From Nocardioides jiangsuensis (lineage in GTDB: Bacteria > Actinomycetota > Actinomycetes > Propionibacteriales > Nocardioidaceae): a stretch of 64,000 nt of DNA. The stretch's first letter is position 1, and every line of letters begins with the position of its first letter. The notes below the pieces were generated by a model, which was given only the letters and a program-made list of their open reading frames with translations, did no database searches and was not told where the DNA came from. The stretch spans positions 1,488,001-1,552,000 of the forward strand of contig NZ_JAIEZQ010000002.1 in the NCBI RefSeq assembly GCF_019679455.1, in the 5' to 3' direction. Below, piece after piece: positions 15,633 to 35,696 of the stretch. A program made the position numbers and the translations under genes.

Positions 15633-17042
15633 TCAGAGCGCGGGAGCCCGGTCGGCCAGCGCCCGGACCGCCTGGGTGAAGCAGGCCATCGGCGGGGTCA
15701 CCAGGCCGGCTCCGACCTGGCCGGTCCCGGCCACCCGGCCGGCCATCCCGGTGTTGATCTGGGGGAGCACGCCGCTGCGCACCACCGAGGTCACGTCGAT
15801 CCCGGTCGGGGCGCCGCGGAACTCCAGGATCGGGATCGCGAAGGCCGGGTTCTCGCCCACGGTGATGTCGTACATCCGCTGCGTCGTGGCCAGCGCGTCC
15901 GGCACGCTGCCGCCCACGAAGCGCACGATCGCCGGGGCGGTGGCCATGGCGAGCCCGCCGATGCCCGCGGTCTCGGTGATCGCGGAGTCGCCGATGTCCG
16001 GGTTGGCGTCGTCGGGGCCGTAGCTGCCGAGGTAGAGCCCCTCGGGGGTGTTCGCCGGCGCGGTGAACCAGGTGTCGCCGGTGCCCGCGGTCTGGATGCC
16101 GAAGTCGGTGCCGTTGCGCGCCATCACGGTGACCACCGTCGAGCCGGGGATGTCGCGGGCCGCGGTGGTCTGCAGCTTGCAGGCGGGCATGCCGAGGTTG
16201 AGGAAGAAGTGGTCGTTGCCGGAGACGAAGCGGACCGCCTCGGCGACGTCCTTCGTGGGCCGGCCCGAGTCGATCATCGCCGGGAGCACCTCGCGCAGGA
16301 ACATCAGCGTCCCTGCCCGGTTCCGGTTGTGGCCCTCGTCGCCCATCTGCACCATCTGCGCGACGATCGCCTTGACGTCGACGGGCCCGCCGGCACGGAC
16401 CGCGTGCTGGAGCAGCGGGCCGAGCACCGCGTTCATCCAGCGCAGCCGCTCGATCACCTCCGCGCCGTAGGCGCCGTACCGCAGCACCTTGCCGAGTCCC
16501 TCGTTGAGCGAGCACCACGACGTGGTGCCGTGCACCTCGTCGCGGAGCTCGAACATCCACATCGACGGGGAGACGACGCCGGCCATCGGGCCGACCGCGC
16601 CGCGGTGGTGGCAGGGCTCCCAGGTGACCCCGTCACCGGACGCGAGCAGCCGCTCGGCGGCCTCCGGCGTGTCCGCCAGCCCCTCGAGCAGCACCGCGCC
16701 GACCAGGGCGCCGCGCATCGGACCCGACGCGCGCTCCCAGGTCACCGGCGGGCCCGCGTGCAGGAACTGGCCGCGCTCCAGACCGAGCGCCTCCGCGGCG
16801 GGGCGTACGTCGACCAGGGCCGCCTCGGCCGCGAGCATCCGCTCCAGGGCCAGCGCGTTCCCGGCCCGCCGGCGGAGGTCGCCCATGACGGCGGCGACCG
16901 CCGCGCCGGTGTCGTCGACCGGGGGCGCCCAGTCGACCCGGAGCGTGGTGACGCCCTGGACGTCGAGCGCGTCGGCGAGCAGGGACGCCCCGGCGGTGAC
17001 CACCGCGGTCGGGGTGGTCAGGGGGCGCAGCGGGGTGGTCAT
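15633..17042 (-). CDS. allG: DUF1116 protein, oxamate carbamoyltransferase AllG (YlbE) homologue
   Basis: The 469-residue protein belongs to the DUF1116/YlbE family. In E. coli, YlbE was renamed AllG, one of three subunits of oxamate carbamoyltransferase, which splits oxalurate with phosphate into oxamate and carbamoyl phosphate. Family-like segments include EPCHHRGAVGPMAGV, MWMFELRDEVHGTTSWCSLNEGLGKVLR, NRNRAGTLMFLRE, FFLNLGMPACK and MARNGTDFGIQTAG. ATG 17042 overlaps the fdrA stop by 4 nt. It is the last gene of the leftward allH-allF-allG operon. A substrate other than oxalurate is likely here (see findings). Confidence 0.85.
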   Translation of the reverse strand: MTTPLRPLTTPTAVVTAGASLLADALDVQGVTTLRVDWAPPVDDTGAAVAAVMGDLRRRAGNALALERMLAAEAALVDVRPAAEALGLERGQFLHAGPPVTWERASGPMRGALVGAVLLEGLADTPEAAERLLASGDGVTWEPCHHRGAVGPMAGVVSPSMWMFELRDEVHGTTSWCSLNEGLGKVLRYGAYGAEVIERLRWMNAVLGPLLQHAVRAGGPVDVKAIVAQMVQMGDEGHNRNRAGTLMFLREVLPAMIDSGRPTKDVAEAVRFVSGNDHFFLNLGMPACKLQTTAARDIPGSTVVTVMARNGTDFGIQTAGTGDTWFTAPANTPEGLYLGSYGPDDANPDIGDSAITETAGIGGLAMATAPAIVRFVGGSVPDALATTQRMYDITVGENPAFAIPILEFRGAPTGIDVTSVVRSGVLPQINTGMAGRVAGTGQVGAGLVTPPMACFTQAVRALADRAPAL

Positions 17043-18520
17043 GCGGTGGCCTCCGGGGTGGCGAGCAGGTCGAGGGCGGCCGTGGTCGCGGCCGCGTTGG
17101 AGAGGTGGACCCAGGCGCCGGCGCGCTCCAGCGTCGCGCGCTGCGCGTCGAGGCCCTGCGGGTCGTCGCGGGTGCCGATCAGCGAGACCACGACGGGCAC
17201 CCCCGCCGCGGTGGCACGGACCACGGCCTCGGCCAGCTCCCCGGCGGGGTCGTCGGCGGCGCCGAGGCCGAGCACCACGTCGAGCAGGAGCACCCCGGTG
17301 TCCGGGTCGTCGGTCTCGGCCAGCAGCCGTTCCACCCGGGCCGCGCCGTCGATCATCGGGTGCGGCCGGCCCTGGGTCAGCCGGTCGTCGCCGAAGTCGA
17401 TCATCGTGTGGCCCTCGGAGGCCAGGTCGTCGCCGATCCGCCGGCCGCCGTCGAGCGGGATGTTGGAGGTCACCGGGCCGAGCCGGCCCGTCGCCAGCAC
17501 CATCGCCTCGTCGCACAGCGTGCCCCCGGCGAAGAGCCCGCGCAGGTAGCCGCCAGGCCGTCCGGCCGCCCCGGCCGGTCCCGGTCCGGGCTCCGGATCC
17601 GTCCACGAGGACCCGACCGCCCAAACCGCCTCCGCGGCGACGTCGGTGACCGTGGGCTGGCCCGGCCCGAGCAGCGCGAAGAGGACCGGCTTGCCCAGTG
17701 TCGCGGCGTGCGCACGCACCTTCTCGGCGACGGACGCGGCGGGGGGCTTGGAGAGGACGACGACCACCTCGGTGGCCTCGTCGTCGGCGAGCAGGTCGAG
17801 CGCCCGCAGCGTGGACAGCCCGCCGACCTCGGCGGAGAGGTCCCGACCGCCGACGCCCAGGCAGTGGCTCACCCCGACCTCGGCCTGGTCGAGCAGCGTC
17901 ATCAGGTGCTGCGCGCCGGTGCCGGAGGCTGCGACGATGCCGACCGGGCCGGGGCGGACGACGTTGGCGAAGCCGAGACCCACGCCGCCGACCACCGCGG
18001 TCCCGCAGTCGGGCCCCATCACGAGCACCCCGGTCTCCTGCGCCCGCCGCTTCAGCGCGACCTCCTGCTCGACGGGGACGTTGTCGCTGAAGACCATCGT
18101 GTGCAGGCCCGCGTCCACCGCGTCCACGGCGTCGGCGAACGCGAACGGTCCCGGCGTCGAGATCAGCGCGATGGTGGCCTCGCCACGACGGGCGGCGGCG
18201 CCGACCGTGACCGGGGCCGGCGCGGACCCGAAGCCGGTGGCGGACGGCGCGGCGGCCTGGCTCAGCGCCGCCTCCAGCTCGGTCAGCGCGGCGGCGAGGG
18301 CGTCCTCGCTCTCCGCGTCGATGCCGACCAGCATCTCGCTCGGCGCGGTCCCGGTGGGGACCTCGAACCCCATCGACGCCGCGAGGTCGAGGTTGAGCTC
18401 CGTGGCCATCGCCACCAGGGCGCCGCGGACGTCCGGCAGCGACGCGACGCGCCGGCTGACCTGCATCAGGGTGACGGAGTCGACGTAGGACCCCCGGCGG
18501 ACCTGCAGTTGCTTCGTCAC
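17039..18520 (-). CDS. allF: FdrA-family acyl-CoA synthetase-like protein, carbamoyltransferase AllF homologue
   Basis: FdrA (AllF) proteins resemble both subunits of ADP-forming succinyl-CoA synthetase. The 493-residue protein has VMGPDCGTAVVGGVGLGFAN (~170), ASGTGAQHLMTLLDQAEVG (~200), LGVGGRDLSAEVGG (~225), GGTLCDEAM, and the FdrA hallmark GDDRLTQGRPHPMIDGAARV (~375). Its start codon is GTG, overlapping the allH stop (GTGA), and its end overlaps allG. In the oxamate carbamoyltransferase model this subunit belongs to the complex forming carbamoyl phosphate. A carbamate kinase gene lies in the same island at 33.5 kb. Confidence 0.87.
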   Translation of the reverse strand: MTKQLQVRRGSYVDSVTLMQVSRRVASLPDVRGALVAMATELNLDLAASMGFEVPTGTAPSEMLVGIDAESEDALAAALTELEAALSQAAAPSATGFGSAPAPVTVGAAARRGEATIALISTPGPFAFADAVDAVDAGLHTMVFSDNVPVEQEVALKRRAQETGVLVMGPDCGTAVVGGVGLGFANVVRPGPVGIVAASGTGAQHLMTLLDQAEVGVSHCLGVGGRDLSAEVGGLSTLRALDLLADDEATEVVVVLSKPPAASVAEKVRAHAATLGKPVLFALLGPGQPTVTDVAAEAVWAVGSSWTDPEPGPGPAGAAGRPGGYLRGLFAGGTLCDEAMVLATGRLGPVTSNIPLDGGRRIGDDLASEGHTMIDFGDDRLTQGRPHPMIDGAARVERLLAETDDPDTGVLLLDVVLGLGAADDPAGELAEAVVRATAAGVPVVVSLIGTRDDPQGLDAQRATLERAGAWVHLSNAAATTAALDLLATPEATA

Positions 18521-19275: not shown

Positions 19276-19281
19276 ACCACG

Positions 19282-19310: not shown

Positions 19311-21023
19311 ATGGTCAATGTTGCCAACGATCCGGCGATGGATGGTCTCGACTTGCCAGCGGGCACCCGTGCGCCGCAGGGCGGGGCAGCTCCCCGCTCG
19401 ATGACCGTGGCCACCATGCTGGCCCTGCCGGCGTTCGCCGGCGCGGAGGTGATCGCGGGCCGGTCCGGGCTGGACCGGGTGGTCCGGAGGGCCAACGTGA
19501 TGGAGGTTCCCGACATCGTCCCCTGGGTCCGGGACGAGGGGCTGCTGCTGACCACCGGCTACCCGCTGCGCGAGGCGACCGGCGGGCTCGCTGCCCTGGT
19601 CGCGGCCCTCGACGAGCGCGGCGTCTCCGCGCTCGCGGTCAAGCTGCACCGCTACCTCGAGCGCCTCCCGGAGCCGATGCTGGCCGAGGCCGACCGGCGC
19701 GGCCTCCCGGTCGTGCTGGTCCCCGACGAGGTCGGCTTCGACGAGGTGCTCACCGAGCTCTACACCAGCGTGGTCAGCGAGCGCGCCTCCCTGCTCGAGC
19801 GCAGCGAGGAGGTGCAGCAGCAGCTCGTCGACATCGTGCTCACCGGCGGCGGCGTGGACGACGTCACCGCCAGCGTGAGCGCGCTCTTCGGTGGGCTGGC
19901 GATGGTCACCACCGCGGACGGCCGGGTGATCAGCGACGTCGGCGCTCCCGAGCAGCGGGCCGCGCTGCGGGAGTCCTCGGTCTTCCACCCCAGCGGCCGC
20001 TTCCGCACGGAGGTGGCGACGGCCGGGGTGCACGTGGTCGACGACGTGCCCGGGTCGCACGCGGTGGTCCACATCAAGGCCGGCCGCATCGACCACGGCC
20101 GGCTCGTCCTGTTCGACCCGGGCCGGGTGATGACCCCCGCGGACCTGACCATCCTCGAACGGGCCGCCACGGTCGCCGCGGTCTCGCTGACCAAGGAGAT
20201 CGCGATCACCGCGGTGGAGAGCAAGTACCGCGGCGACTTCCTGCGGGACGTGCTCGCGGGGCGGGCCGGGGCGCCGGCCGACGTGGTCGCCCACGCCCGG
20301 TCGCTCGGCTGGGACCTCGACCGCCCGGTCGTGGTCCTGGTCGCCGCGCTCGACACCGAGCGCGCGCCCGCGATGTCGCTGGGCTACCGCGGCCCGGTGG
20401 AGGTGGAGCGGTTCACCGCCGCCTGGCGGGGCGTGGTGGGCCGCCAGGACGCCACCGTCCCGGTCGAGGGCTTCGCCGCCGAGGTGGTGGCCCTGCTGCC
20501 GGTGCCCGCCGGCTCCGCCCCGGCGTCGGTGGTGGACCCCACGGTCGCGCACGTCGCCGGCGACGGCGGGGGCGGGCGACGGCCGTTCGCGACCGGGGTG
20601 AGCCGGGTGGTCACCTCGCCGGACCAGCTGCCCGCGGCGTACGAGCAGGCCCGCAAGGCGCTGCACGTCGGCCGCCAGCTGCACGGCCCCCACGCGCTCG
20701 CCCACTTCGACGAGCTCGGCGTGTTCCGGCTGCTCAGCCTGATCGACGACTCCCGGGAGCTCAGCAGCTTCGTCACCGAGACGCTGGGCGACCTGGCGGA
20801 CGGTACGTCGACCGAGGCGGCCGACCTGCGGGAGACGCTCCAGATGCTGCTCGACACCAACCTCAACGTCGCCGAGACCGCGCGCCGGCTGCACTTCCAC
20901 TACAACACGCTGCGTTACCGGATCAGCAAGCTGGAGCGGCTGGTGGGACCGTTCACGACCGACCCGAACCTGCGCCTGGACCTCGCGCTGGCGCTGAGGG
21001 TGGTGGCGATGCGGAACCTCTGA
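19311..21023 (+). CDS. pucR: PucR-family transcriptional regulator
   Basis: PucR regulators control purine and related nitrogen catabolism. The 570-residue protein has an N-terminal PucR domain (MTVATMLALPAFAGAEVIAGRSG, VPWVRDEGLLLTTGYPL), a GGDEF-like CdaR middle region, and a C-terminal helix-turn-helix of the PucR type (LQMLLDTNLNVAETARRLHFHYNTLRYRISKLE, ~520-552). I chose ATG 19311, preceded at 7 nt by TAGCGT, as a leaderless start. ATG 19269 would lie inside the allH promoter, and 19338 is further downstream. As the only regulator in the island, it is the probable sensor of the degraded heterocycle or a product. Confidence 0.85.
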   Translation: MVNVANDPAMDGLDLPAGTRAPQGGAAPRSMTVATMLALPAFAGAEVIAGRSGLDRVVRRANVMEVPDIVPWVRDEGLLLTTGYPLREATGGLAALVAALDERGVSALAVKLHRYLERLPEPMLAEADRRGLPVVLVPDEVGFDEVLTELYTSVVSERASLLERSEEVQQQLVDIVLTGGGVDDVTASVSALFGGLAMVTTADGRVISDVGAPEQRAALRESSVFHPSGRFRTEVATAGVHVVDDVPGSHAVVHIKAGRIDHGRLVLFDPGRVMTPADLTILERAATVAAVSLTKEIAITAVESKYRGDFLRDVLAGRAGAPADVVAHARSLGWDLDRPVVVLVAALDTERAPAMSLGYRGPVEVERFTAAWRGVVGRQDATVPVEGFAAEVVALLPVPAGSAPASVVDPTVAHVAGDGGGGRRPFATGVSRVVTSPDQLPAAYEQARKALHVGRQLHGPHALAHFDELGVFRLLSLIDDSRELSSFVTETLGDLADGTSTEAADLRETLQMLLDTNLNVAETARRLHFHYNTLRYRISKLERLVGPFTTDPNLRLDLALALRVVAMRNL

Positions 21024-21197
21024 GGCGCTTGGCAGATTGTCACAGTGGCCCCCCCGCTGATTCGGCACGTGTTTTCGGGCGCACATGATGCAGGTCACAG
21101 CGGGGCTGGTGCACAGTGTGCTGAGGCTCGCGCGTGCAAGCCGACCAAGGGTGCACCGACCTCGCAACGGGCCGGTGCGTGTGGGCAGGAGACCTGC

Positions 21198-22661
21198 ATG
21201 TCATTTGGATGGAAAGTCGTCTACGGCGGCAAGACGCCGCCGCCCGGGGCCGCCGTAGCCCCCGATGAGCGCCTGTCCTGGGGGAGGACCACCGGCCTGG
21301 GAGCCCAGCACGTCGTGGCCATGTTCGGCGCGACCTTCGTGTTCCCGATCATCATGGGCCTCAACGCCAACCTGGCGATCATGATGAGCGGCATCGCCAC
21401 GATCTGCTTCCTGCTGATCGTCAAGAACCAGGTGCCCAGCTACCTGGGCACGTCCGCGTCGTTCGTCGGCGGTGCCGCCGCCATCTACGCCCAGGGCGGC
21501 GGTCCCGAGGACGTCACCGGCGCGATCCTGGTCGCCGGCGCGGTGCTCGCGCTCGTCGGCGTGGTGATCCACTTCCTCGGCTCGCACGTGGTCAACGCCG
21601 TCCTGCCTCCGGTGGTCACCGGCGCGGTGGTCATGCTGATCGGCTTCAACCTGGCCCCGGTCGCCACCCAGACCTACATGCCCACCGACCCGTGGGTCGC
21701 GCTGCTGACCATGGCCGCGGTGATCCTGATGGCGGTGGGCCTGCGCGGCTTCCTCGGCCGGATCGCGATCTTCCTCGGCCTGATCTTCGGCTACGTGGTC
21801 TCGTTCCTCGCCGACCTGCTGTTCGGCAAGATCACCTCGCCGCTGCCCGGGGCCACCGAGGCCACCGAGCACTGGCGCGTCGACTGGACCAACGTCACCG
21901 GCGCCGAGTGGCTCGGCTTCCCGGGCAAGACCGCCGAGGGGCTCGTCGGCAACCAGCTCGAGGCCGGCAACCTGGCCGCGGTCGGCTGGCACCTGCCGAG
22001 CTTCTCCATCACCTTCAGCCTCCTGGTGCTGCCGGCTGTCATCGCGCTGATCGCCGAGAACGTCGGCCACGTGAAGGCGGTCGCGGAGATGACCCGCGCC
22101 GACCTCGATCCGATGATGGGCCGCGCGATCGCCGCCGACGGAGTCGGCACGATGATCGCCAGCTCCGTGGGCGGCTCGCCCACCACGACGTACGCCGAGA
22201 ACATCGGCGTCATGGCCGCCACCCGGGTCTACTCCACGGCCGCCTACTACGTGGCCGCGGTCGTCGCGATCCTGCTCGGGTTCGTGCCCAAGTTCGGCCA
22301 GATCGTCAACGCCACCCCCGGCGGCGTGCTCGGTGGGATCACGCTCGTGCTCTACGGCATGATCGGCCTGCTCGGCGCCAAGATCTGGATGGAGAACGGC
22401 GTCGACTTCGCCAAGCCGGTGAACCTGGTCCCGATCGCCGCGGGCATCATCCTCGCGATCGGCAACGCGGAGCTGACGATCACCGACTCGTTCTCGCTGA
22501 GCGGCATCGCCCTCGGCACGCTGGTCGCGGTCATCGGCTACCACCTCGCCAACGCCTTCGCGCCGAAGGACCTCGACGAGGGGGCACTGACCGTGGTGGG
22601 CCGTCCCGGGGTGAACGAGGAGGAAGAGATCCCGCCGCACGAGGACCACCGCAAGCACTGA
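21198..22661 (+). CDS. uraA: NCS2-family uracil permease (UraA-like)
   Basis: The 487-residue protein is a proton-driven nucleobase symporter with about 14 membrane segments. It follows UraA rather than the purine permeases: IAENVGHVKAVAEMT (~285) matches the UraA substrate loop with its Glu and His, and the second segment TTTYAENIGVMAATRVYS (~331) is almost identical to UraA. That points to uracil or a close pyrimidine. ATG 21198 follows GCAGGAGA at a good distance; the longer upstream frame from 21045 has no hydrophobic sequence and is rejected. The acidic and His-rich tail (EEEEIPPHEDHRKH) is cytoplasmic. The 174-nt gap after pucR may hold its promoter. Confidence 0.9.
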   Translation: MSFGWKVVYGGKTPPPGAAVAPDERLSWGRTTGLGAQHVVAMFGATFVFPIIMGLNANLAIMMSGIATICFLLIVKNQVPSYLGTSASFVGGAAAIYAQGGGPEDVTGAILVAGAVLALVGVVIHFLGSHVVNAVLPPVVTGAVVMLIGFNLAPVATQTYMPTDPWVALLTMAAVILMAVGLRGFLGRIAIFLGLIFGYVVSFLADLLFGKITSPLPGATEATEHWRVDWTNVTGAEWLGFPGKTAEGLVGNQLEAGNLAAVGWHLPSFSITFSLLVLPAVIALIAENVGHVKAVAEMTRADLDPMMGRAIAADGVGTMIASSVGGSPTTTYAENIGVMAATRVYSTAAYYVAAVVAILLGFVPKFGQIVNATPGGVLGGITLVLYGMIGLLGAKIWMENGVDFAKPVNLVPIAAGIILAIGNAELTITDSFSLSGIALGTLVAVIGYHLANAFAPKDLDEGALTVVGRPGVNEEEEIPPHEDHRKH

Positions 22662-22683: not shown

Positions 22684-23568
22684 GTGAAGCCTTCCCCGTT
22701 CTCCTACCACCGGCCTCGCACCGTCGAGGAGGCCGTCGAGCTGCTCGGCGCGCTCGGGGAGGAGGGGAAGGTCCTCGCGGGAGGGCAGAGCCTGGTCCCG
22801 CTGATGTCGATGAGGCTGGCCGCACCCGCCCACCTCGTCGACGTCAACCACATCCCCGAGCTGGACACCGTCGCGGTCACCGCGGCCGGGGTCCGGGTCG
22901 GCGCGACGGCCCGCCACGCGCGGGTCGAGAAGGACGCGGCGGCGTACGACGCGGCGCCGTTGCTGCGCCAGGGACTGGTCAACGTCGCGCACCCCACCAT
23001 CCGCAACCGGGGTACTACGGTCGGCAGCCTGGTCCACGCCGACCCGTCCGCGGAGATGCCGGCCGTGCTCGCGCTGCTCGGCGGGTCCGTCGAGCTGCGC
23101 AGCACCGCGGGCAGCCGCGAGGTCGCGGCCGCGGACTTCTTCGTCGGGCCGATGGAGTCGGCGCTCCGCCCCGGCGAGCTGGCCGTCGCGGCCACCTTCC
23201 ACCGCCCGCCGCCGCGCAGCGGGTCCGCGTTCGTGGAGCTGGCACGCCGGCACGGCGACTACGCGCTGTGCGGCGTGGCCGCCCTCGTCACCACCGACCA
23301 CGACGGCGCGGTCACCACCGCCCGGGTCGCGCTGATCAGCGTCGGGCCGGTCCCGGTCGTCGTCGACGTCGGCGCCGCCGTGCACGGCACCGGGACGGCG
23401 TTCGACACCGAGCGGCTCGCGGGGCTGCTCGACGCCGCCATCGACCCCGAGGCCGACATCCACGCCACCGCCGAGTACCGCCGCCACCTGGCCCACGTGC
23501 TGGCCGCACGGGCCCTGACCGAGGCGCACGAGCACGCCGGCCCCACCCGAGACGAGAGAGCATCCTGA
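22684..23568 (+). CDS. Molybdenum hydroxylase FAD-binding subunit (CoxM/XdhB type)
   Basis: This is the medium subunit that passes electrons from the iron-sulfur subunit to FAD. The 294-residue protein has the FAD pyrophosphate motifs AGGQSLVPLMSMR (~33) and TIRNRGTTVGSLVHADPSAEMPA (~105), and a C-terminal CO-dehydrogenase-flavoprotein domain. GTG 22684 has AGAAAGAAG just upstream. It follows the permease by 22 nt, and its TGA overlaps the next ATG by one base. The three hydroxylase subunits are contiguous in the order FAD, Fe-S, Mo. Confidence 0.92.
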   Translation: MKPSPFSYHRPRTVEEAVELLGALGEEGKVLAGGQSLVPLMSMRLAAPAHLVDVNHIPELDTVAVTAAGVRVGATARHARVEKDAAAYDAAPLLRQGLVNVAHPTIRNRGTTVGSLVHADPSAEMPAVLALLGGSVELRSTAGSREVAAADFFVGPMESALRPGELAVAATFHRPPPRSGSAFVELARRHGDYALCGVAALVTTDHDGAVTTARVALISVGPVPVVVDVGAAVHGTGTAFDTERLAGLLDAAIDPEADIHATAEYRRHLAHVLAARALTEAHEHAGPTRDERAS

Positions 23569-24062
23569 TGACCACCGAGGCCTTGGTCCGCGTCGCGTTC
23601 ACGGTGAACGGGGCGCCGTACGACCTCGAGGTCCCCGCCCGGCGGCTGCTCTCCGACGCGCTGCGCCACGACCTGCGGCTGACCGGCACCCACGTCGGCT
23701 GCGAGCACGGTGTGTGCGGCGCCTGCACCGTCCTCGTCGACGGCGCGCCCATCCGCTCCTGCCTGGTCTTCGCGGTCAGCCTGGAGGGCGCCGCGATCAC
23801 CACCGTCGAGGGCTGCCGGAACGCCGAGGGCGGGATGGGTCCGGTGCAGCAGGCGTTCCAGGAGTGCCACGCCCTGCAGTGCGGGTTCTGCACCCCGGGG
23901 TTCATCACCACGGTCACCGCCTACCTCGAGGACCATCCCGCCCCCACCGCCGCGGAGGCTCGCGAGGCGATCTCGGGGAACCTGTGCCGGTGCACCGGCT
24001 ACCAGAACATCGTGGCCGCCGTGCAGCGCGCCGCCGAGATCAAGTGGGGGGAGGGAGCGTGA
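23568..24062 (+). CDS. Molybdenum hydroxylase 2Fe-2S subunit (CoxS/XdhC-type small subunit)
   Basis: The 164-residue protein has both iron-sulfur clusters. The plant-ferredoxin-like N-terminal one is GCEHGVCGACTVLVDG (~44-59). The C-terminal four-helix one is QCGFCTPGF (~104) plus CRCTGYQNI (~141). It links the Mo subunit to the FAD subunit. ATG 23568 overlaps the previous stop (TGATG), and its own TGA overlaps the GTG of the large subunit. An in-frame upstream start at 23268 lies inside the FAD subunit gene and is rejected. Confidence 0.95.
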   Translation: MTTEALVRVAFTVNGAPYDLEVPARRLLSDALRHDLRLTGTHVGCEHGVCGACTVLVDGAPIRSCLVFAVSLEGAAITTVEGCRNAEGGMGPVQQAFQECHALQCGFCTPGFITTVTAYLEDHPAPTAAEAREAISGNLCRCTGYQNIVAAVQRAAEIKWGEGA

Positions 24063-27401: not shown

Positions 27402-28822
27402 CGCTGGACCACTACAGCACCGCGCGGGAGATGGTGGCGGCGGTCGCCGCCAAGGAGGTCTCGGCGCGGGAGCTCCTCGAGCTGCACCTGCAGCGGCTCG
27501 AGGAGACCAACCCGGCCGTAAACGCGGTGGTCAGCCTCGACGTGCGGCGCGCGCGTGAGCAGGCGCTGGCCGCCGACGAGCGGCTGGCCCGCGGCGAGCC
27601 GGTCGGGGCGCTGCACGGGCTGCCGTTCGCGTTCAAGGACACCCACGAGGTCGCCGGCTGGCCGACCACGTTCGGGTCGCCGCTGCGCGAGGACCACGTG
27701 TCCCGGCGCGACGACCTGGTGGTCGAGCGGATCCGGGCCGCGGGCGTCGTGGTGGTGGGCAAGACCAACGTGCCGGAGTGGGCGGCGGGCTCGCACACTT
27801 TCAACCGGATCTTCGGCACGACGCGCAACCCCTACGCGCTCAGCCGCTCCGCCGGCGGGTCCAGCGGCGGCGCCGCGGCCGCCCTGGCGAGCGGCATGGT
27901 CCCGCTCGCCGAGGGCAGCGACATGGGCGGGTCGCTGCGTAACCCGGCGTCCTTCTGCAACGTCGTCGGGCTGCGGCCCAGCGTCGGACGCGTGCCCACC
28001 TGGCCGACCACCAACGCGTGGGAGCTGACCTCGGTGGGCGGCCCCATGGCCCGCAACGTCGAGGACCTCGCCCTGCTCCTCTCGGTGATCGCCGGCCCCA
28101 GCACCCGGGCGCCGATGTCGCTGGAGACCCCGGGGAGCGCCTTCGCCCCACCGCTCACGGGAGGCCTCGAGGGCCTGCGGGTGGCGATGTCGGTCGACCT
28201 CGGCGGGGTCATCGCCGTCGACCACGGCGTCGCGCGCATCGTGCAGGCGCAGGAGGCCGTGTTCTCCGGCGCCGGCGCGCACGTGGAGCAGACCCACCCG
28301 GACCTGGCCGGCGCCGAGGAGGTGTTCCGCACCCTCCGCGCCTGGCTGTTCCAGCACCGGTTCGGCACGCTGCTCGCGAAGCGGCCCGACGCGTTCAAGC
28401 AGTCCCTGGCCGACAACATCCGCGCGGGCGCGGACCTCACCGGGGCCGACGTGGCGCGTGCCTACGAACGGCGTACCCGGCTCGCCGAGCGGGTGCGCAC
28501 CTTCTTCGAGTCCTACGACGTGCTGGTGATGCCGGTGAGCCAGGTGCCGCCGTTCAGCGCCGACGACGAGTACCCCACCGCGATCAACGGCCGGCCGCAG
28601 GCGACGTACCTGGACTGGATGCGCTCCGCGTACCTGATCACGGTCACCGGCTGCCCCGCCATCTCCGTCCCGGCCGGCTTCACCCCGGAGGGGTGGCCGG
28701 TCGGCATCCAGATCGTCGCGGCCCCGAACCAGGAGCGCCGGCTGCTGGAGGTCGCGCACGCCTACGAGCAGCTCACCCGGTACGGCGACCGCCGTCCCCG
28801 CATCAGGCAGGAGCAGTCATGA
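27398..28822 (+). CDS. Amidase signature family hydrolase
   Basis: The 474-residue enzyme has the Ser-cisSer-Lys triad: Lys80 in FAFKDTHEV, Ser155 in SAGGSSGG and the nucleophile Ser179 in GSDMGGSLRNPA. The N-terminal helix pair and C-terminal substrate part are complete. Family members hydrolyse amides from Glu-tRNA to biuret or allophanate, so the sequence does not fix the substrate. In this island it is a candidate for hydrolysing malonamate to malonate and ammonia, or ureidomalonate directly. Both ends have 4-nt overlaps, to the coxG-like gene and to hyuA. Confidence 0.85.
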   Translation: MTLDHYSTAREMVAAVAAKEVSARELLELHLQRLEETNPAVNAVVSLDVRRAREQALAADERLARGEPVGALHGLPFAFKDTHEVAGWPTTFGSPLREDHVSRRDDLVVERIRAAGVVVVGKTNVPEWAAGSHTFNRIFGTTRNPYALSRSAGGSSGGAAAALASGMVPLAEGSDMGGSLRNPASFCNVVGLRPSVGRVPTWPTTNAWELTSVGGPMARNVEDLALLLSVIAGPSTRAPMSLETPGSAFAPPLTGGLEGLRVAMSVDLGGVIAVDHGVARIVQAQEAVFSGAGAHVEQTHPDLAGAEEVFRTLRAWLFQHRFGTLLAKRPDAFKQSLADNIRAGADLTGADVARAYERRTRLAERVRTFFESYDVLVMPVSQVPPFSADDEYPTAINGRPQATYLDWMRSAYLITVTGCPAISVPAGFTPEGWPVGIQIVAAPNQERRLLEVAHAYEQLTRYGDRRPRIRQEQS

Positions 28823-30927
28823 CCACCAGCCCGGCCCCCCGGCGCATCCGGATCGGGATCGACACCGGGGGAACGTTCACCGACGTCGTCGCGGTGGACG
28901 AGCACACGGGGGAGATGGCCACCACCAAGACGCCGTCCACCCCGCACGACCCGGCGGTCGGCTTCATGACCGGGGTGCACAAGGTGCTCGACGCGCTGGG
29001 CCTCGACGGGTCGGCGGTGAGCGCGGTCAGCCACGGCACCACCGTCGCCACGAACAAGCTGCTCGAGGGCAAGGTCCAGAACCTCGGCTTCATCACCACC
29101 GAGGGCTACGAGTTCGTGCTGGAGATCGCCCGGCAGTCCGTGCCCGACGGCTACGGCAACTCCTACTTCTGGGTGAAGCCCGACCGGATCGTCCCCGCCC
29201 ACCGGGTCAAGACCGTCGGCGGCCGCCTGGCCGTCGACGGGACGGAGATCCGGCCCTTCGACGAGGAGTCCGCCGTCCGCGCCGCCCGCTGGTTCCGCGA
29301 CCAGGGCATCGCCACGATCGGCGTCTGCTTCCTGCACTCCTACGCCAACGACGCCCACGAGCGCGCCATGCGCGACATCCTCGCTCGCGAGCACCCCGAG
29401 GCCACCGTCTCCGTCTCCAGCGAGGTGCTCCGCGAGTACCGCGAGTACGAGCGCAGCGTGACCACCCTCGTCGACGCCGCCGTGAAGCCCAACATCCGCC
29501 GCTACGTCGAGAACATCACCCGCCACCTGAACGCGTTCACCACCTCGGCCTCGGCGCAACGGGCGATCCCCTTCTACGTGATGAAGTCCAACGGCGGCGT
29601 CCTCTCCGCCGAGGAGGTCGTCCACCAGCCGATCACGACCGTCCTCTCCGGCCCCGCCGCCGGCGCCCTCGGTGCCGCCGTGGTCGCCGAGAAGGCCGGC
29701 TTCCCTCAGGTGGTCACCTGCGACGGCGGCGGTACGTCCACCGACGTGACCGTCGTGGTGGACGGCAGGCCGACGCTCACCACGGAGGGCCACGTCGGGG
29801 CGTACCCGAGCAAGATCCCGATGATCGACGTGGTCACGGTCGGCGCCGGCGGTGGCTCCATCGCCTGGATCTCGCCGGAGGGGACGCTCAAGGTCGGCCC
29901 GCACTCGGCCGGCGCGGACCCGGGTCCGATGTGCTACCGGACCGGGGGTGTCGAGCCCACGATCACCGACGCGCACCTGCTGCTCGGCCGGATCCCGCCG
30001 CACCTGCTCGGCGGCGAGGTCCCCCTCGACCGGGACACCGCCCGCTCGGGCCTGGAGAAGCTGGCCCTCGACCTGGGCCTGTCGCTGGAGGCGTGCGCCA
30101 CCGGCGTGCTGGAGATCTCCGCGTGGAACCAGGCCAACGCGCTGCGCCAGATCACCGTCAACCGCGGCCTCGACGTCCGGGACTTCACCCTGGTCACGTT
30201 CGGTGGCTCGGGCTCCCTGCTGGCCTGCCGGCTCGTGGACGTGCTCGGCCTGCGCGGTGTGCTGGTCCCGCTCAACCCCGGCAACCTGTCGGCCTACGGG
30301 CTGCTCACCGTGGACGTGCGCAACGACTACGTGCAGACCGCGGTCGCGCGGGCGTCCGCGCTGGCGCCCGCCGAGGTCCAGGCCGGCTTCGACGACCTCG
30401 CCGCCAAGGCCGACGCGGCGCTGGCGCGCGAGGGCTTCCCCGCGGCGGAGCGGGTGTTCCACCGCACGGTCGACGTCCGCTACTACGGCCAGGCCTACGA
30501 GGTGCGCGTCGACGTGCCCGAGGGGCCGGTGGACGAGCAGACGTTCGCCGCGGTCGCGCGGGCCTTCCACGACGAGCACGCGGTGCTGTACGGCTACGAC
30601 TTCCGCACCGACCCCCGCCAGGAGGTGGAGTGGGTCAACCTCCGGGTCACCGGGGTCGGCCCGATCCGCAAGCCCGAGGTCCGCGCGGTCGCCGCCGGCA
30701 CCGGTGCCGAGCGGGCCCGCCGTGGCTCGCGGCAGGTCTACTTCGACGCCTGGGTGGACGCCCCGGTCTACGACCGCGCCCGGCTCGGGGCCGGCGACGT
30801 GGTCGAGGGGCCCGCCGTGCTCGAGGAGTTCAGCTCCACCGTCCCGCTGCACCCGGGCTTCACCGCCCGCGTCGACGGCTACGGAAACCTGGTCATCACC
30901 CGTACGACGGACGGAGCCGCGTCATGA
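28819..30927 (+). CDS. hyuA: Hydantoinase/oxoprolinase subunit A
   Basis: HyuA is the ATP-binding subunit of the ATP-dependent N-methylhydantoinase/5-oxoprolinase/acetone carboxylase superfamily. The 702-residue protein opens RIRIGIDTGGTFTDVVAVDE. It continues with SHGTTVATNKLLEGK, the middle domain with SGPAAGALGAA and CDGGGTSTDVTVV (~300), and GADPGPMCY (~370). ATG 28819 has CAGGAG upstream and overlaps the amidase stop. It probably works with HyuB in ATP-driven opening of a cyclic amide or ureide. Where that fits in the proposed pathway is not clear. Confidence 0.9.
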   Translation: MTTSPAPRRIRIGIDTGGTFTDVVAVDEHTGEMATTKTPSTPHDPAVGFMTGVHKVLDALGLDGSAVSAVSHGTTVATNKLLEGKVQNLGFITTEGYEFVLEIARQSVPDGYGNSYFWVKPDRIVPAHRVKTVGGRLAVDGTEIRPFDEESAVRAARWFRDQGIATIGVCFLHSYANDAHERAMRDILAREHPEATVSVSSEVLREYREYERSVTTLVDAAVKPNIRRYVENITRHLNAFTTSASAQRAIPFYVMKSNGGVLSAEEVVHQPITTVLSGPAAGALGAAVVAEKAGFPQVVTCDGGGTSTDVTVVVDGRPTLTTEGHVGAYPSKIPMIDVVTVGAGGGSIAWISPEGTLKVGPHSAGADPGPMCYRTGGVEPTITDAHLLLGRIPPHLLGGEVPLDRDTARSGLEKLALDLGLSLEACATGVLEISAWNQANALRQITVNRGLDVRDFTLVTFGGSGSLLACRLVDVLGLRGVLVPLNPGNLSAYGLLTVDVRNDYVQTAVARASALAPAEVQAGFDDLAAKADAALAREGFPAAERVFHRTVDVRYYGQAYEVRVDVPEGPVDEQTFAAVARAFHDEHAVLYGYDFRTDPRQEVEWVNLRVTGVGPIRKPEVRAVAAGTGAERARRGSRQVYFDAWVDAPVYDRARLGAGDVVEGPAVLEEFSSTVPLHPGFTARVDGYGNLVITRTTDGAAS

Positions 30928-32822
30928 GCCAGCCCTACCGCCTCACCGACGCGGGCACCGCCCCGGACCCGATCCTCGTCGAGATCATCGAGGGCTACCT
31001 CGCCTCGGTGGAGATGGAGGTCGAGACCGCCATCGGGCGCACCAGCCGCTCGCCGATGATCCGGGACGCGCACGACTACCGGGCCGGCATCCACGACCGG
31101 AACCTGCGCAAGCTCACCGGCCGGTCCTACTCCGCGCTGGTGCACCCGGTGGTGCGCGACTACCCGATCGAGACCATGAAGCCCGGCGACGTGTTCTTCC
31201 ACAACGACGTGTACCTGTCCGAGGGCGGGATCGGCCACCTCCCGGACCTGTGCGTGACCGCCCCGGTCTTCCACGACAGCGGCAACGGCCCCGAGGTTGT
31301 CGGCTTCGTCCAGGCGTTCGGCCACCACGACGACATCGGCGGCGCCGTACCCGGGTCGATGCCCAGCCACGCCACCAGCGTCTTCGAGGAGGGGCTGATG
31401 GTCCCGCCGATCAAGCTGTGGGACCAGGGCGTGCCGTGCGAGCAGGCGCTGAAGATCATGACCCGCAACTCGCGGATGCCCGACTCGCTGGCCGCCGACC
31501 TCGACGCCGAGTGCTCCGCATGCCTGATGGGCGCGCGGCGGATGGCCGAGCTGTTCGAGCGGTACGGCCGCGACACGGTCGAGGCCTGCTTCGACGCGGT
31601 GCTGGACAAGACCACCGAGACCTTCCGCCGCGAGATCCTCTCCAAGATCCCCGAGGGGACCTACACCTGGGAGGACTACGCCGAGCACGACGGGGTCGAG
31701 GACCCGAAGCTGCACACCCAGCGGATCACGCTGACCAAGACCTCCGCCGACGATCCCGACGGCGAGCGGATCGTGCTCGACTTCCACGGCACCGCGCCGC
31801 AGGCGAAGGGGCCGATCAACCACTGCGGCGACTACGCCGACGGCAACTTCCTCAAGAAGTGGCTCGCGCCGATCCTGCGCAACCTCGCCGACACCCCCGA
31901 GCGGATGGCCGAGCTCGACGTCAACGAGGGCGTGGTCCCGCTGATCGAGATGCGCTTCCCGCCCAAGGGCACGCTGCTCACCCCGGAGTTCCCCGCGCCC
32001 ACCAACGCCCGCACGTTCGTGATCCTGCGGCTGCTCGGGGTGCTCGCCGGCGTGGTCGCGAAGGCGGTGGACGGCCGGATGCCGGCCGACCAGGAGACGA
32101 TCCGCTACACCGGCGTGTACGGCGACGACTTCGACGGCGAGCCGTACCTGATGCGAGAGGTGCTCGGCGGTGGCTCCGGGGGCCGCTACTACGCCGACGG
32201 CGAGGACACCATCCACGTGGTGCCCGACTCCCGGAACCTGCCCTCCGAGTTCTCCGAGTCCCGGTTCCCCTTCGTCGTCGAGCGCCTCGGCCTGGCCGTC
32301 GACAGCGGCGGCCCGGGCCGGCACCGCGGCGGTCTCGGCTACGAGAAGCAGATCCGGATGCTCAAGGACGCGCACTTCATGTCGATCGCGGACCGGTCCA
32401 TCCTGGCCTGCTGGGGCGTGAAGGGCGGCAAGGCCGGTCAGCCGTTCTCGGTGACCGTGGACCCCGGCGGCCCGCGCGAGCGGGAGGTGGACGCGCTCGC
32501 CGACGCCGAGCCGGTCCGCGCCGGCGAGGTGATCCGGATCCGGACCACCGGCGGCGGCGGCTGGGGCGACCCGCTCGCGCGGCCGTACGACGAGGTGCGG
32601 CGCGACGTGCTCTGGGGCAAGGTCTCGGTGGACGGCGCCCGCCGCGACTACGGCGTGGTGGTGGCCGGGGGAGCGGACGAGCCGCGGGTCGACGTAGCCG
32701 CGAGCGACGCGCTGCGCGAGGAGCTGCGCCGGTCCCGCCCAGCGGAGCCGTTCTTCGACCGGGGCCCCGGCTACGCCACCCTGGCCGCCGGCGCCACCGC
32801 GGCCGAGGTGGACTGGCTGTGA
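30924..32822 (+). CDS. hyuB: Hydantoinase/oxoprolinase subunit B
   Basis: HyuB is the partner catalytic subunit of HyuA. The 632-residue protein has the family segments PILVEIIEGYLASVEMEVE, GDVFFHNDVY, GGIGHLPDLCVTAPVF, FGHHDDIGGAVPGSMP (~137, metal-binding-type His/Asp run) and the C-terminal RHRGGLGYEKQIRML. ATG 30924 overlaps the hyuA stop by 4 nt, and its own stop overlaps the SDR start. The separate A and B genes differ from eukaryote-like fused oxoprolinases. Confidence 0.9.
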   Translation: MSQPYRLTDAGTAPDPILVEIIEGYLASVEMEVETAIGRTSRSPMIRDAHDYRAGIHDRNLRKLTGRSYSALVHPVVRDYPIETMKPGDVFFHNDVYLSEGGIGHLPDLCVTAPVFHDSGNGPEVVGFVQAFGHHDDIGGAVPGSMPSHATSVFEEGLMVPPIKLWDQGVPCEQALKIMTRNSRMPDSLAADLDAECSACLMGARRMAELFERYGRDTVEACFDAVLDKTTETFRREILSKIPEGTYTWEDYAEHDGVEDPKLHTQRITLTKTSADDPDGERIVLDFHGTAPQAKGPINHCGDYADGNFLKKWLAPILRNLADTPERMAELDVNEGVVPLIEMRFPPKGTLLTPEFPAPTNARTFVILRLLGVLAGVVAKAVDGRMPADQETIRYTGVYGDDFDGEPYLMREVLGGGSGGRYYADGEDTIHVVPDSRNLPSEFSESRFPFVVERLGLAVDSGGPGRHRGGLGYEKQIRMLKDAHFMSIADRSILACWGVKGGKAGQPFSVTVDPGGPREREVDALADAEPVRAGEVIRIRTTGGGGWGDPLARPYDEVRRDVLWGKVSVDGARRDYGVVVAGGADEPRVDVAASDALREELRRSRPAEPFFDRGPGYATLAAGATAAEVDWL

Positions 32823-33541
32823 GGCGGCTGTCGCTGGTCACGGGCGGAACCCGCGGCATCGGTGCCGCGGTCGCGCTCCGGCTGGCCGCCGACGGGCACG
32901 ACCTGGTGCTCGGCTACCACCGCGACACGGAGGCCGCCGAGACGACGGCCGCGAAGGTCCGGGCCCAGGGCGTCGCCTGCCGTACCGTGCGCGCCGACGT
33001 CACCGACCCCGACGGAGTGGACGCGCTCTTCGCCGCTGCCGAGGGCCGGTTGACCGGGGTGGTCTCGAACGCGGGCGCCACGCTCCACCTCGGGGACCTC
33101 GCGGACACCCCCGTCGACGTGGTCCGGCGGGTCGTCGAGCTCAACCTGACGGCGGCGATCCTGGTCGCCCGCCGGGCCGTCCAGCTGCTCGACCGTGGGG
33201 GCGTGCTGGTCAACGTCTCCTCCGCGGCCGCCACGCGGGGCGCGCCACACGAGTACGTCCACTACGCCGCCGCGAAGGCGGGCGTGGACGCGCTGACGCA
33301 CGGCCTCGCCCAGGAGGTCGCGCCCCGCGGCATCCGGGTCGTGGGCGTCGCACCCGGGATCGTCCGCACCGGCATCCACGCCGACGCCGGCGACCCCGGC
33401 CGGCTGGAGCGGCTGGGCCCCCAGGTGCCGCTCGGCCGGGTCGGCGAGCCCGAGGAGGTCGCCGAGGCGGTGGCCTGGCTGGTGTCCGACGCCTGCCCCT
33501 ACGCGATCGGTGCGACCCTGCGCGTGGCAGGTGCGCGATGA
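32819..33541 (+). CDS. Short-chain dehydrogenase/reductase
   Basis: This is a classical SDR of 240 residues: nucleotide loop TGGTRGIG (~8-15), the NAG motif SNAGA, catalytic Ser in [15 protein letters not shown] (Tyr and Lys, ~148-152) and the C-terminal [12 protein letters not shown]. The Arg/His-containing beta2 segment (GYHRD) suggests NADP(H). GTG 32819 overlaps the hyuB stop; its stop overlaps the carbamate kinase ATG. The substrate is unknown. The context offers a 3-oxo or hydroxy acid intermediate such as a malonate semialdehyde, but this is only a guess. Confidence 0.8.
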
Positions 33542-34473
33542 GGGTGCTGCTCGCCCTGGGCGGGAACGCGATGACCTCCCCGGACGGGCGGGCGCGTCCC
33601 GAGGACCAGATCGCCGCGGCCGAGGTCGCGATGCGCGGCGTCGCGGACCTGGTCGCCCGGGGGATGGACGTCGTGGTCACCCACGGCAACGGCCCCCAGG
33701 TGGGGAACCTGCTGGTCAAGAACGAGATCGCCGCGGCCGTGGTGCCGCCGGTGCCGCTCGACTGGTGCGGCGCCCAGACCCAGGCCACGTTGGGCTTCGT
33801 GCTGATGAACGCCCTCGACGCCGCGCTCCGGGCGCGCGGCGTGGACCGGCGCTCGGCCACCCTGGTCACCCGCACCCGGGTGGACCCCCAGGACCCCGGG
33901 TTCGTGCGCCCCACCAAGCCGATCGGGCGGTACCTGCCGAAGGAGGAGGCCGTCGTCCTGGTCGAGCACGGGGAGACCTGGGAGGACCGCGGGGAGCGCG
34001 GCTGGCGCCGGGTCGTCGCCTCGCCCGAGCCGCTCGAGATCGTCGACGCGACCGCGATCGACGCGCTGGTCGGCGCCGGGTTCGTGGTGGTCGCCAACGG
34101 CGGCGGCGGGATCCCCGTGGTGCGCGGCGCCGACGGCGGCCTGGCCGGTGTCGAGGCGGTGATCGACAAGGACCTCGGCGCGGCGCTGCTGGCCCGGTCG
34201 GTGCACGCCGACGTGCTCGTGGTCGCCACCGACGTACCCCATGCCGTGCTCCGCTTCGGGACCCCCGAGGCGGAGCCGCTCGGCGGGGTCACCGTCGCGC
34301 GGCTGCGGGCGCTCGCCGCCGAGGGGCACTTCGCCAGCGGCTCGATGGCCCCCAAGGTCGACGCGGTCTGCCGGTTCGTCGAGGCCGGCGGCACCCGGGC
34401 CGTGATCAGCAACCTCGACCACATCGTCGACGCGGTCGCCGGCCGCGCCGGGACCGTCGTCACTCCCGGCTGA
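33538..34473 (+). CDS. arcC: Carbamate kinase
   Basis: Carbamate kinase makes ATP from carbamoyl phosphate and ADP, leaving carbamate that decays to CO2 and ammonia. The 311-residue protein shows LLALGGNAM (4-12), [12 protein letters not shown] (~47), [12 protein letters not shown] (~75), [20 protein letters not shown] (~184) and [13 protein letters not shown] (~208). No arginine deiminase or arcB is nearby; the likely carbamoyl phosphate source is the AllFGH-like complex in the divergent operon. ATG 33538 overlaps the SDR stop by 4 nt. Confidence 0.93.
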
Positions 34474-34498
34474 GCCGGAGCACCGCACCCCCGTCCGA

Positions 34499-34539
34499 AG
34501 CACCACCCGAGCAGCACCACCCGAGCAGCACCACCCGAG
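34499..34539 (+). repeat. Tandem 14-bp repeats before the barbiturase gene
   Basis: Three near-perfect copies of AGCACCACCCGAGC start at 34499, 34513 and 34527 (the last lacks its final C). They fill half of the 80-nt gap between carbamate kinase and the barbiturase gene, just upstream of its AGAAGGAG site. The 14-nt period is not a multiple of three, and the array is not coding in the neighbouring genes' frames. Confidence 0.85.
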
Positions 34540-34553
34540 AAGGAGCGCAAGCG

Positions 34554-35696
34554 ATGCCAGAGCCAGTCGAGGTCCGCAAGGTCCCGATCCTGAACGTGTC
34601 CGACGCCAGCGGCCTCGCCGACCTCGTGGACCGGGGCGTCCTCGACGCCGACCGGGTGGTCGCGGTGATCGGCAAGACCGAGGGCAACGGGGGCGTCAAC
34701 GACTACACCCGGATCATCGCCGACCGGGCGTTCCGCGAGGTGCTGGTCGCCAAGGGCACCCGCAGCGCGGAGGAGGTGAACCAGGTCCCGATCGTGTGGT
34801 CGGGCGGCACCGACGGCGTGCTCAGCCCGCACGCGACGATCTTCGCGACCGTCCCGGCAGGGGCCGCGCCGGCCACCGACGAGCCCCGGCTCACGGTCGG
34901 CTTCGCGATGAGCGAGAAGCTGCTGCCCGAGGACATCGGCCGCGTGGCGATGGTGGAGAAGGTCGCCGACGCGGTGCGCGTGGCCATGGAGAAGGCGGGC
35001 ATCACCGACACCGCCGACGTCCACTACGTGCAGACCAAGACGCCGCTGCTGACGATCCACACGATCCGTGACGCCAAGAGTCGCGGCAAGACGGTGTGGA
35101 CCGAGCACACCCACGAGTCGATGGACCTCTCCAACGGGTGCACGGCGCTGGGCATCGCCGTCGCGCTCGGCGAGATCGACATGCCCACCGACGAGCAGGT
35201 GATGCACGACCGGTCGCTGTACTCCAGCGTCGCCTCCTGCTCCAGCGGCGTCGAGCTCGACCAGGCCCAGGTGGTCGTGGTCGGCAACGCCCGGGGCGTC
35301 GGCGGCCGGTACCGGATCGGTCACTCGGTGATGCAGGACGCCCTCGACCAGGACGGCATCTGGGCGGCGGTCAAGGACGCCGGGCTCGACCTGCCCGAGC
35401 GTCCGCACCACACCGACCTGCAGGGCCGCCTGGTCAACGTGTTCCTCAAGTGCGAGGTCAGCCAGGACGGCGAGGTGCACGGCCGGCGCAACGCGATGCT
35501 CGACGACTCGGACGTGCACTGGCACCGGCAGATCAAGGCGGCCGTGGGCGGGGTGACCGCCGCGGTCACCGGCGACCCCGCGGTCTTCGTCTCGGTCTCG
35601 GCGGCGCACCAGGGCCCCGACGGCGGCGGCCCGGTGGCCGCGATCGTCGACCTCGGGGAGGACCCGACCGGCTACGTGCCCCCCGCGCGCGGCTGA
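34554..35696 (+). CDS. Barbiturase / cyanuric acid amidohydrolase family enzyme
   Basis: The 380-residue protein belongs to the small AtzD/TrzD/barbiturase family, built of three similar domains with three Ser-Lys pairs. Visible family motifs: [15 protein letters not shown] (Lys41), [12 protein letters not shown] (Ser83), Lys162 in [17 protein letters not shown] (Ser231), [11 protein letters not shown], and [18 protein letters not shown] (Ser349). Cyanuric acid hydrolase and barbiturase cannot be told apart with certainty by eye. The UraA permease and Mo hydroxylase favour barbiturate, opened to ureidomalonate. ATG 34554 follows AGAAGGAGCG. It is the last gene of the island; the convergent epimerase gene lies 36 nt beyond. 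Confidence 0.88.

Follow-up and report, generated by a model that had tools for sequence, protein, structure and literature searches.

The window analysed here is a 64,000-nucleotide stretch of the genome of Nocardioides jiangsuensis, a soil-type actinobacterium (contig NZ_JAIEZQ010000002.1, positions 1,488,001 to 1,552,000), with a G+C content of 73.5% in a genome of 3.97 Mb. Between positions 15633 and 35696 it holds an island of 15 genes, which probably encodes oxidative degradation of pyrimidines (uracil) with a phosphorolytic, energy-conserving lower half. Three genes, allH-allF-allG, lie on the minus strand (19275 to 15633) and encode a complex, AllHFG, that resembles the three-subunit oxamate carbamoyltransferase AllFGH. 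They are divergent from pucR, a point absent from the preliminary description of this DNA. pucR is the first of the plus-strand genes (19401 to 35696) and is followed by genes for an NCS2 permease, the FAD, 2Fe-2S and Mo subunits of a molybdenum (Mo) hydroxylase, CoxG, an amidase, HyuA, HyuB, an SDR-family oxidoreductase, carbamate kinase and barbiturase (Table 1). Apart from CoxG, these families had already been named at this place, and profile matches bear the assignment out for every listed gene.

Table 1. Genes of the island, with positions in the window and the matches that identify them
Gene or product	Position	Strand	Matches and remarks
AllG-like subunit, 469 aa, last in allHFG operon	15633..17042	-	PF06545 320.9 bits, E 4.7e-96; ATG 17042, GGAG upstream
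AllF/FdrA-like subunit, 493 aa	17039..18520	-	PF00549 113.8 bits, E 7.6e-33; PDB 3dmy FdrA E 2.6e-72
AllH-like subunit, 252 aa	18517..19275	-	PF11392 82.6 bits, E 3.9e-23
PucR-type transcription regulator	19401..21023	+	PF07905, PF13556, PF17853; PucR E 1.1e-31
NCS2 nucleobase permease	21198..22661	+	PF00860 (Xan_ur_permease) 227.1 bits, E 3.8e-67
Mo hydroxylase FAD subunit	22684..23568	+	PF00941, PF03450
Mo hydroxylase 2Fe-2S subunit	23565..24062	+	PF01799, PF00111
Mo hydroxylase large subunit, candidate uracil/thymine dehydrogenase	24059..26434	+	PF02738/PF20256; NF040766
CoxG-like protein of Mo hydroxylase clusters	26568..27401	+	PF06240 87.9 bits
Amidase-signature amide hydrolase, candidate malonamate hydrolase	27398..28822	+	PF01425 361.9 bits, E 7.4e-108
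HyuA/5-oxoprolinase-like subunit	28819..30927	+	PF01968, PF05378, PF19278
HyuB subunit	30924..32822	+	PF02538 459.5 bits
SDR-family oxidoreductase	32819..33541	+	PF13561 166.3 bits
Carbamate kinase	33538..34473	+	PF00696; NF009007 307.1 bits (cut-off 266)
Barbiturase (predicted), 380 aa	34554..35696	+	AtzD/TrzD ring-opening amidohydrolase family PF09663, E 5.2e-145; PDB 5hwe

Gene starts were picked from overlaps and from inspection of ribosome sites. For pucR the ATG at 19401 was picked since the domain begins there, and earlier starts are possible. With the chosen starts, the overlaps previously described at 22.7-26.4 kb and 26.6-34.5 kb are confirmed as seven junctions of 4 nt each. Two of them join the FAD, 2Fe-2S and Mo genes (22684-26434; 23565/23568 and 24059/24062), and five join the genes from coxG to carbamate kinase (26568-34473; 27398/27401, 28819/28822, 30924/30927, 32819/32822 and 33538/33541). 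The barbiturase gene starts 80 bp after the end of the carbamate kinase gene. Two further 4-nt overlaps lie on the minus strand, including that of the allG ATG with the allF stop. Four proteins score below the cut-offs of named models: AllF against the NCBIfam FdrA model (388.9 bits, cut-off 433), the permease against RutG (334.9, cut-off 758.65), HyuA against the caprolactamase alpha subunit (532.3, cut-off 1000) and carbamate kinase against arcC (333.2, cut-off 358.25).

The identity of the ring-opening hydrolase as a barbiturase (EC 3.5.2.1, AtzD/Bar group VI) is strongly supported. Its best solved relative is the barbiturase 5hwe (682 bits, E 1.5e-204), followed by a cyanuric acid hydrolase at 330 bits. 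Five positions that separate the two activities are given by Peat et al. 2013 (PMC3758960), and the barbiturase set in Bar numbering is Asn194, His324, Lys328, Val348 and Ser/Ala349 (PMC3758960). The window protein has N194, H324, K328, V348 and S349, and all 80 named relatives also carry the barbiturase set, with residue 349 being Ser in 76 and Ala in 5 of the 81 proteins. We considered a cyanuric acid hydrolase and rejected it, as the AtzD residues R195, T321, R325, G345 and G346 are replaced by N, H, K, V and S. Thus, although PF09663 is shared with the AtzD/TrzD cyanuric acid hydrolases, the signature in 81 of 81 proteins speaks against cyanuric acid as the substrate and in favour of the barbiturase that the preliminary description had proposed. 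The NCBIfam model NF052395 (cyanuric acid amidohydrolase) matches the gene at 479 bits, above its cut-off of 360, and this name looks wrong for the island gene.

The island families are grouped beyond chance. Within the order, 99 of the 391 genomes sampled have a gene of barbiturase type, defined as a PF09663 match of at least 465 bits (100 matches). The preliminary description had suggested checking whether AllFGH homologues co-occur with barbiturase, and AllG is present in all 99; 16 further genomes have AllG and no barbiturase-type gene. Up to five candidates for PF09663 and seven for AllG were scored per genome. The Fisher value for this pairing, 2.7e-76, ignores kinship, and related genomes are not independent samples. 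The Mo hydroxylase model NF040766 is matched above its cut-off in 99 of the 391 genomes, a set identical to the 99 barbiturase genomes; at most the two best first-look candidates were scored per genome, so the absences lean on the first look. A 100th match above the cut-off, a second copy in G319 (1012 bits), was left out of this comparison. The families are also physically linked. AllG lies on the barbiturase contig for 90 of the 100 barbiturase matches, at a distance of 8-40 kb and in 87 cases on the opposite strand. The Mo hydroxylase is on the barbiturase contig in 96 of 99 genomes, about 8-32 kb away, and 93 times on the same strand. The gene order varies by lineage in tblastn maps (G181, G305 and Pseudonocardia acaciae), and the linkage is kept.

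A second comparison was based on 80 named loci, of which 50 were submitted to a genome search and 49 genomes were searched (L077 was left out, as were 27 metagenome-assembled or uncultured records and the isolates L058, L079 and L080). AllG is found in 45 of these 49 barbiturase carriers, and the four without it are the Rhodococcus/Rhodococcoides genomes. With the window genome included, 47 of 50 named genomes have exactly one NF040766 match above the cut-off. The other three are Pseudonocardia acaciae (G396), G426, where gene pieces lie on two contigs, and Rhodococcus G420, whose best match has E 1.5e-66 and whose barbiturase locus ends inside the FAD-subunit gene. The gene immediately before barbiturase encodes carbamate kinase in 74 of the 80 loci; the exceptions are four Rhodococcus loci, one Arachnia locus and one Tessaracoccus locus, the last with carbamate kinase 9 kb away on the other side. 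Nearly all barbiturase-bearing relatives examined share the core genes of the island.

Three weaker PF09663 matches, at 288, 213 and 211 bits, were set apart from these counts (a second copy in G161, and the only copies in G241 and G249). The protein of G241, a genome with AllG, is 34% identical to barbiturase, is without the barbiturase signature and lies beside an E. coli-type AllFGH (L173, 2411-14758), together with two AllK-like matches and YahJ-like amidohydrolase matches. This is possibly another cluster that combines ring opening with acylurea phosphorolysis. In G249 (L180, 9556-11901) the non-barbiturase PF09663 protein lies beside two YahJ-like amidohydrolase matches, and this genome has no AllG match.

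All three subunits of AllHFG are homologous to those of E. coli AllFGH (45% identity for AllG over 407 aa, 39% for AllF, 42% for AllH over 103 aa), and the trees place the window AllF and AllG outside the clade of the E. coli proteins. In a maximum-likelihood tree of 54 AllG rows, 36 of 36 rows from barbiturase genomes form their own branch (support 100/99). Seven rows, all from genomes of the order that lack a barbiturase-type gene, group with E. coli AllG, and four others with E. coli YahG. The AllF tree gives the same split, with 13 of 13 rows from barbiturase genomes in a clade of their own (100/100). Because branches are long and deeper nodes weak, we claim only the separateness of these clades. 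At 21 AllG positions, 13 barbiturase-type rows share one residue and 8 oxamate-type rows another; these positions include N239/Q188 and R242/I191, which are inside the MGDE-H-RN stretch, and H278/Q227. The second AllFGH-like clade, YahF/YahG, is found in genomes of the order (L164, L170, L171, L175) and in E. coli (L182, yahE-yahJ). YahI-like carbamate kinase matches occur in three of its four loci in the order, and the amidohydrolase gene yahJ adjoins in E. coli. By analogy, this clade may be a further acylurea carbamoyltransferase.

In an assay, E. coli AllFGH catalysed the formation of oxalurate from oxamate and carbamoyl phosphate as well as the reverse reaction (Kim and Kim 2024, PMC11326118). 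With its carbamate kinase AllK, the E. coli system is a close parallel in both subunits and proposed chemistry, in which an acylurea and phosphate give an acylamide and carbamoyl phosphate. The window AllHFG is different in having its own AllG and AllF clades, no adjacent allantoin genes, the order H-F-G and a divergent position. Since ureidomalonate is an oxalurate-type acylurea extended by one CH2, the reaction that we propose for AllHFG would need no new chemistry. AllFGHK without upstream allantoin genes is also described from comammox and ammonia-oxidising archaea (PMC12625717), in a ureide setting. There, however, it lies beside the biuret hydrolase gene biuH in a biuret/triuret context, and no atzD was found in the nitrifier genomes studied there. 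Rubrobacter xylanophilus offers a functional precedent (PMC4016543): a ureidoglycine carbamoyltransferase, its activity demonstrated with purified enzyme, replaces a hydrolase in nucleobase breakdown, and a carbamate kinase gene is its neighbour. That enzyme belongs to the ATCase superfamily and to a purine pathway.

The closest contrast is with Rhodococcus. Barbiturase and ureidomalonase have been described in R. erythropolis JCM 3132, giving malonic acid and urea (PMC3758960; strain of origin in PMC3961730; both citing Soong 2001 and 2002), and the oxidative pyrimidine pathway has been called rare, with urea and malonic acid as its end products (PMC3758960). The cluster of R. erythropolis NBRC 15567 (L026) is like that of the window in its barbiturase (84% identical), permease, Mo hydroxylase, CoxG and HyuA. 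It differs in that an amidase (11233-12723) lies right behind barbiturase, that carbamate kinase is not adjacent and that the genome lacks AllG. All four Rhodococcus loci carry an amidase of this type immediately downstream of barbiturase, and the remaining 76 loci do not; three of these 76 break off within 700 bp of barbiturase. We suggest that it is a candidate for the ureidomalonase gene. In the window, AllHFG and carbamate kinase take the place of this amidase, and carbamoyl phosphate would be formed in place of urea.

We therefore propose the following route. The NCS2 permease would import uracil, and the Mo hydroxylase would oxidise it to barbiturate. Barbiturase, the step most strongly supported by sequence, would open the ring to ureidomalonate. 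AllHFG, judged by its homology to oxamate carbamoyltransferase, would then convert ureidomalonate and phosphate into malonamate and carbamoyl phosphate, and carbamate kinase would use the latter with ADP to yield ATP, CO2 and ammonia. The amidase, or a nitrilase-family enzyme in other lineages, may hydrolyse malonamate to malonate and ammonia, and malonate may be converted to malonyl-CoA. PucR probably regulates the island; we infer both this regulation and uracil as the substrate. The pathway put forward in the preliminary description, an oxidative one from uracil by way of barbiturate with carbamoyl phosphate at its end, is supported overall by the co-occurrence and the barbiturase signature. 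That description named no substrate for the AllFGH-type complex, and the evidence points to ureidomalonate. On this evidence, we suggest that the island is a new form of the known oxidative pyrimidine pathway and that it employs a branch of the AllFGH family that is itself new.

The position after coxG is informative for the malonamate step. An amide hydrolase fills it in 22 of the 23 non-Rhodococcus clusters in which coxG was seen, 13 with an amidase and 9 with a CN_hydrolase. This count comprises 18 named loci (11 amidase, 6 CN_hydrolase, 1 none) and five added clusters (an amidase in the window and L149, a CN_hydrolase in L143, L145 and L155). In three of three testable Rhodococcus loci the slot is empty. 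That unrelated amide hydrolases share one slot, and that it is empty where AllG is missing, is as expected if AllFGH leaves malonamate. For the last step, Janibacter and Phytoactinopolyspora have genes for a class III CoA-transferase and an acyl-CoA carboxyltransferase, placed between hyuB and the carbamate kinase gene. The CoA-transferase is matched in 51 of the 80 loci and the carboxyltransferase in 19, though CoA-transferases of this family are common, the match is on the other strand or downstream in some of the 51, and neither enzyme is always within the operon. Both are present near the cluster in all four Rhodococcus loci, L026 among them. The CoA-transferase is closest to dicarboxylate CoA-transferase models, below their cut-offs. 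The presence of both enzymes near the cluster fits malonate as an end product common to the AllFGH and Rhodococcus variants. In Janibacter (L143, 2537-4174), a purH-type AICAR transformylase/IMP cyclohydrolase gene just past the barbiturase end is probably unrelated.

Several observations weigh against the phosphorolytic route, in addition to the kinship of the genomes and the first-look limit given above. In Arachnia (L049/G170), AllFGH and barbiturase are present and no carbamate kinase match was found in 30 kb. In Pseudonocardia acaciae, which carries AllFGH together with carbamate kinase and barbiturase, 24 kb of sequence gave no HyuAB match, and NF040766 is not matched above the cut-off. 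The cluster L067 has no amide hydrolase in the slot after coxG, and neither the CoA-transferase nor the carboxyltransferase has a match in the window. The amidase itself raises a further difficulty. It is 39% identical to the Rhodococcus amidase behind barbiturase, and both exceed the 465-bit cut-off of NF005686, the window protein narrowly (476.8 bits) and the Rhodococcus protein by far (712.9 bits). With this identity and a shared subfamily, the window amidase could itself be a ureidomalonase. Furthermore, in a Jatrophihabitans metagenome-assembled genome (L007, 4631-5763 and on) a window-type amidase (60% identity) lies directly behind barbiturase, and carbamate kinase precedes barbiturase. 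Carriers of the island also show no clear depletion of urease: 20 of the 99 in the order have a strong match (at least 126 bits; weak matches near the cut-off in G161, G298, G319 and G380 were left out), and at least 22 family members without the island also have one.

The points on the amidase agree with a classical urea route, in which the amidase splits ureidomalonate into urea and malonate while AllHFG and carbamate kinase serve another substrate within the same regulon. We regard this as unlikely. No Rhodococcus-type amidase adjoins barbiturase in the window, where the 39% relative lies about 6 kb upstream; AllG is absent only where such an amidase does adjoin barbiturase, and carbamate kinase is next to barbiturase in the great majority of loci. 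In 9 of the 23 clusters, the enzyme in the slot after coxG is of the nitrilase family and unrelated to the amidase. The fate of urea was considered as well. A profile search of the window genome found no urease alpha subunit, and none of the 10 urea carboxylase candidates scored, out of 26, passed the cut-off, so the cell would have no use for urea and could at most excrete it. Because excretion is possible, this is not decisive. All 50 genomes match urea carboxylase only below the cut-off, and the matches listed fall mostly at model positions 1-480, which we take to be the biotin carboxylase part; the four Rhodococcus genomes match positions 428-1122 at 964-972 bits, also below the cut-off. 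Urease alpha is present in four of four Rhodococcus versus 8 of 45 named AllG carriers, one match being partial (Fisher p 0.0023), and is thus missing in 37 of the 45. We first took the absence of urease as strong support, and we now give it little weight because, across the order, island carriers are not clearly poorer in urease. Highly improbable, in our view, is the explanation that AllHFG, as an ordinary oxamate carbamoyltransferase, handles oxalurate from allantoin and only happens to lie beside the pyrimidine island. The homology to E. coli AllFGH and the presence of carbamate kinase agree with it. However, the AllG and AllF clades are separate, and of the seven genomes of the order with E. 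coli-type AllG, none of which has a barbiturase-type gene, three have it beside an AllC-like gene (L163, L166, L172). No match to E. coli AllC, AllD or AllE was found in the 64-kb window, and Ldh_2, the AllD family, has no match above the cut-off in the window genome and none in 33 of the 46 AllG carriers searched. We rejected the allantoin/oxalurate assignment on these grounds, and the presence of AllG in every barbiturase genome of the order also argues against it.

The upper half of the pathway has rivals of its own. The large subunit of the Mo hydroxylase matches NF040766 (aerobic carbon monoxide (CO) dehydrogenase, CODH_aero_grp5) at 1522.3 bits against a cut-off of 950, and CoxG is adjacent. 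It could therefore be a real aerobic CO dehydrogenase of NCBIfam group 5, with the ring substrate reaching barbiturase in another way, as the lower pathway of P. acaciae without an NF040766 match above the cut-off might suggest. We consider this very unlikely. AYXCSFR is the active-site motif of form I CoxL, the aerobic CO dehydrogenase; the large subunit has no AY.CSFR, and its active-site stretch reads VTPYRGAGRPQG, with YRGAGR at residue 361. Published work holds that form II enzymes might not act on CO under physiological conditions (PMC6794299). The best PDB match is quinoline 2-oxidoreductase (1t3q), an N-heterocycle hydroxylase, with the CO dehydrogenases (CoxL) ranking after it, and NF040766 is found in exactly the barbiturase genomes of the order and close to barbiturase. 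An ordinary CO dehydrogenase was rejected on the grounds of the motif, the PDB match and the co-occurrence. The same sequence features and co-occurrence make the Mo hydroxylase a candidate uracil/thymine dehydrogenase, and the CO dehydrogenase name looks wrong for 24059-26434. It is also conceivable, though quite unlikely, that the physiological ring is another barbiturate-like imide, for example one with a 5-substituent or one derived from a purine or cytosine, which enters the same lower pathway. Uracil breakdown requires neither HyuAB nor the SDR or NmrA-type genes, and P. acaciae again has no NF040766 enzyme above the cut-off. Against this stand the barbiturase signature, which is kept throughout, and the NCS2 permease and PucR, which fit nucleobases.

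HyuAB is common to the AllFGH and Rhodococcus variants, and so it is not part of the split in the lower pathway. As an ATP-dependent cyclic amide hydrolase type, it may open a second ring such as 5-methylbarbiturate derived from thymine, which is a guess. In P. acaciae (L147, 431-2858), genes for LamB/YcsF and CT_A_B proteins, which we take to be the other type of 5-oxoprolinase (PxpABC), lie upstream of carbamate kinase and barbiturase. HyuAB and these proteins, two ATP-dependent cyclic amide hydrolases without relationship to each other, may thus be interchangeable in function, and the occurrence of one where the other has no match hints that ATP-dependent opening of a cyclic amide is needed. 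The SDR gene is not constant, with a match in 11 of the 80 loci; an NmrA-like protein is matched in 22 of 80, and sometimes both are present. The genes flanking the island appear unrelated to it, with HisG and a PH-domain protein on the left and an aldose epimerase, a GNAT protein and a glycosyltransferase on the right.

Taken jointly, our proposal is that barbiturase-linked AllHFG is a new enzyme, a ureidomalonate phosphorylase (malonamate carbamoyltransferase), that most barbiturase-bearing actinobacteria use the ATP-yielding route and not the urea route known from Rhodococcus, and that NF040766 supplies the missing gene for uracil/thymine dehydrogenase; we lean, by a little, towards all three holding together. 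To our knowledge, uracil/thymine dehydrogenase and ureidomalonase have no gene assigned. The NF040766 family and the Rhodococcus amidase would provide candidates. In the parts of the open-licence literature available to us, we found no report that joins barbiturase with AllFGH or carbamate kinase, or that assigns the NF040766 family to uracil. If our proposal is correct, annotation would have to be amended, since under the two NCBIfam labels such genomes would pass for CO oxidisers and degraders of cyanuric acid. A second natural substrate would be known for the newly discovered three-subunit carbamoyltransferase family, and AllFGH, the uncharacterised E. coli YahEFG and the window AllHFG would be one acylurea-phosphorolysis module acting on different acyl groups. 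The phosphorolytic, energy-conserving form would be the common one among the sampled barbiturase-bearing actinobacteria. Rather than giving off half of the nitrogen as urea, the cell would recover ammonia and ATP.

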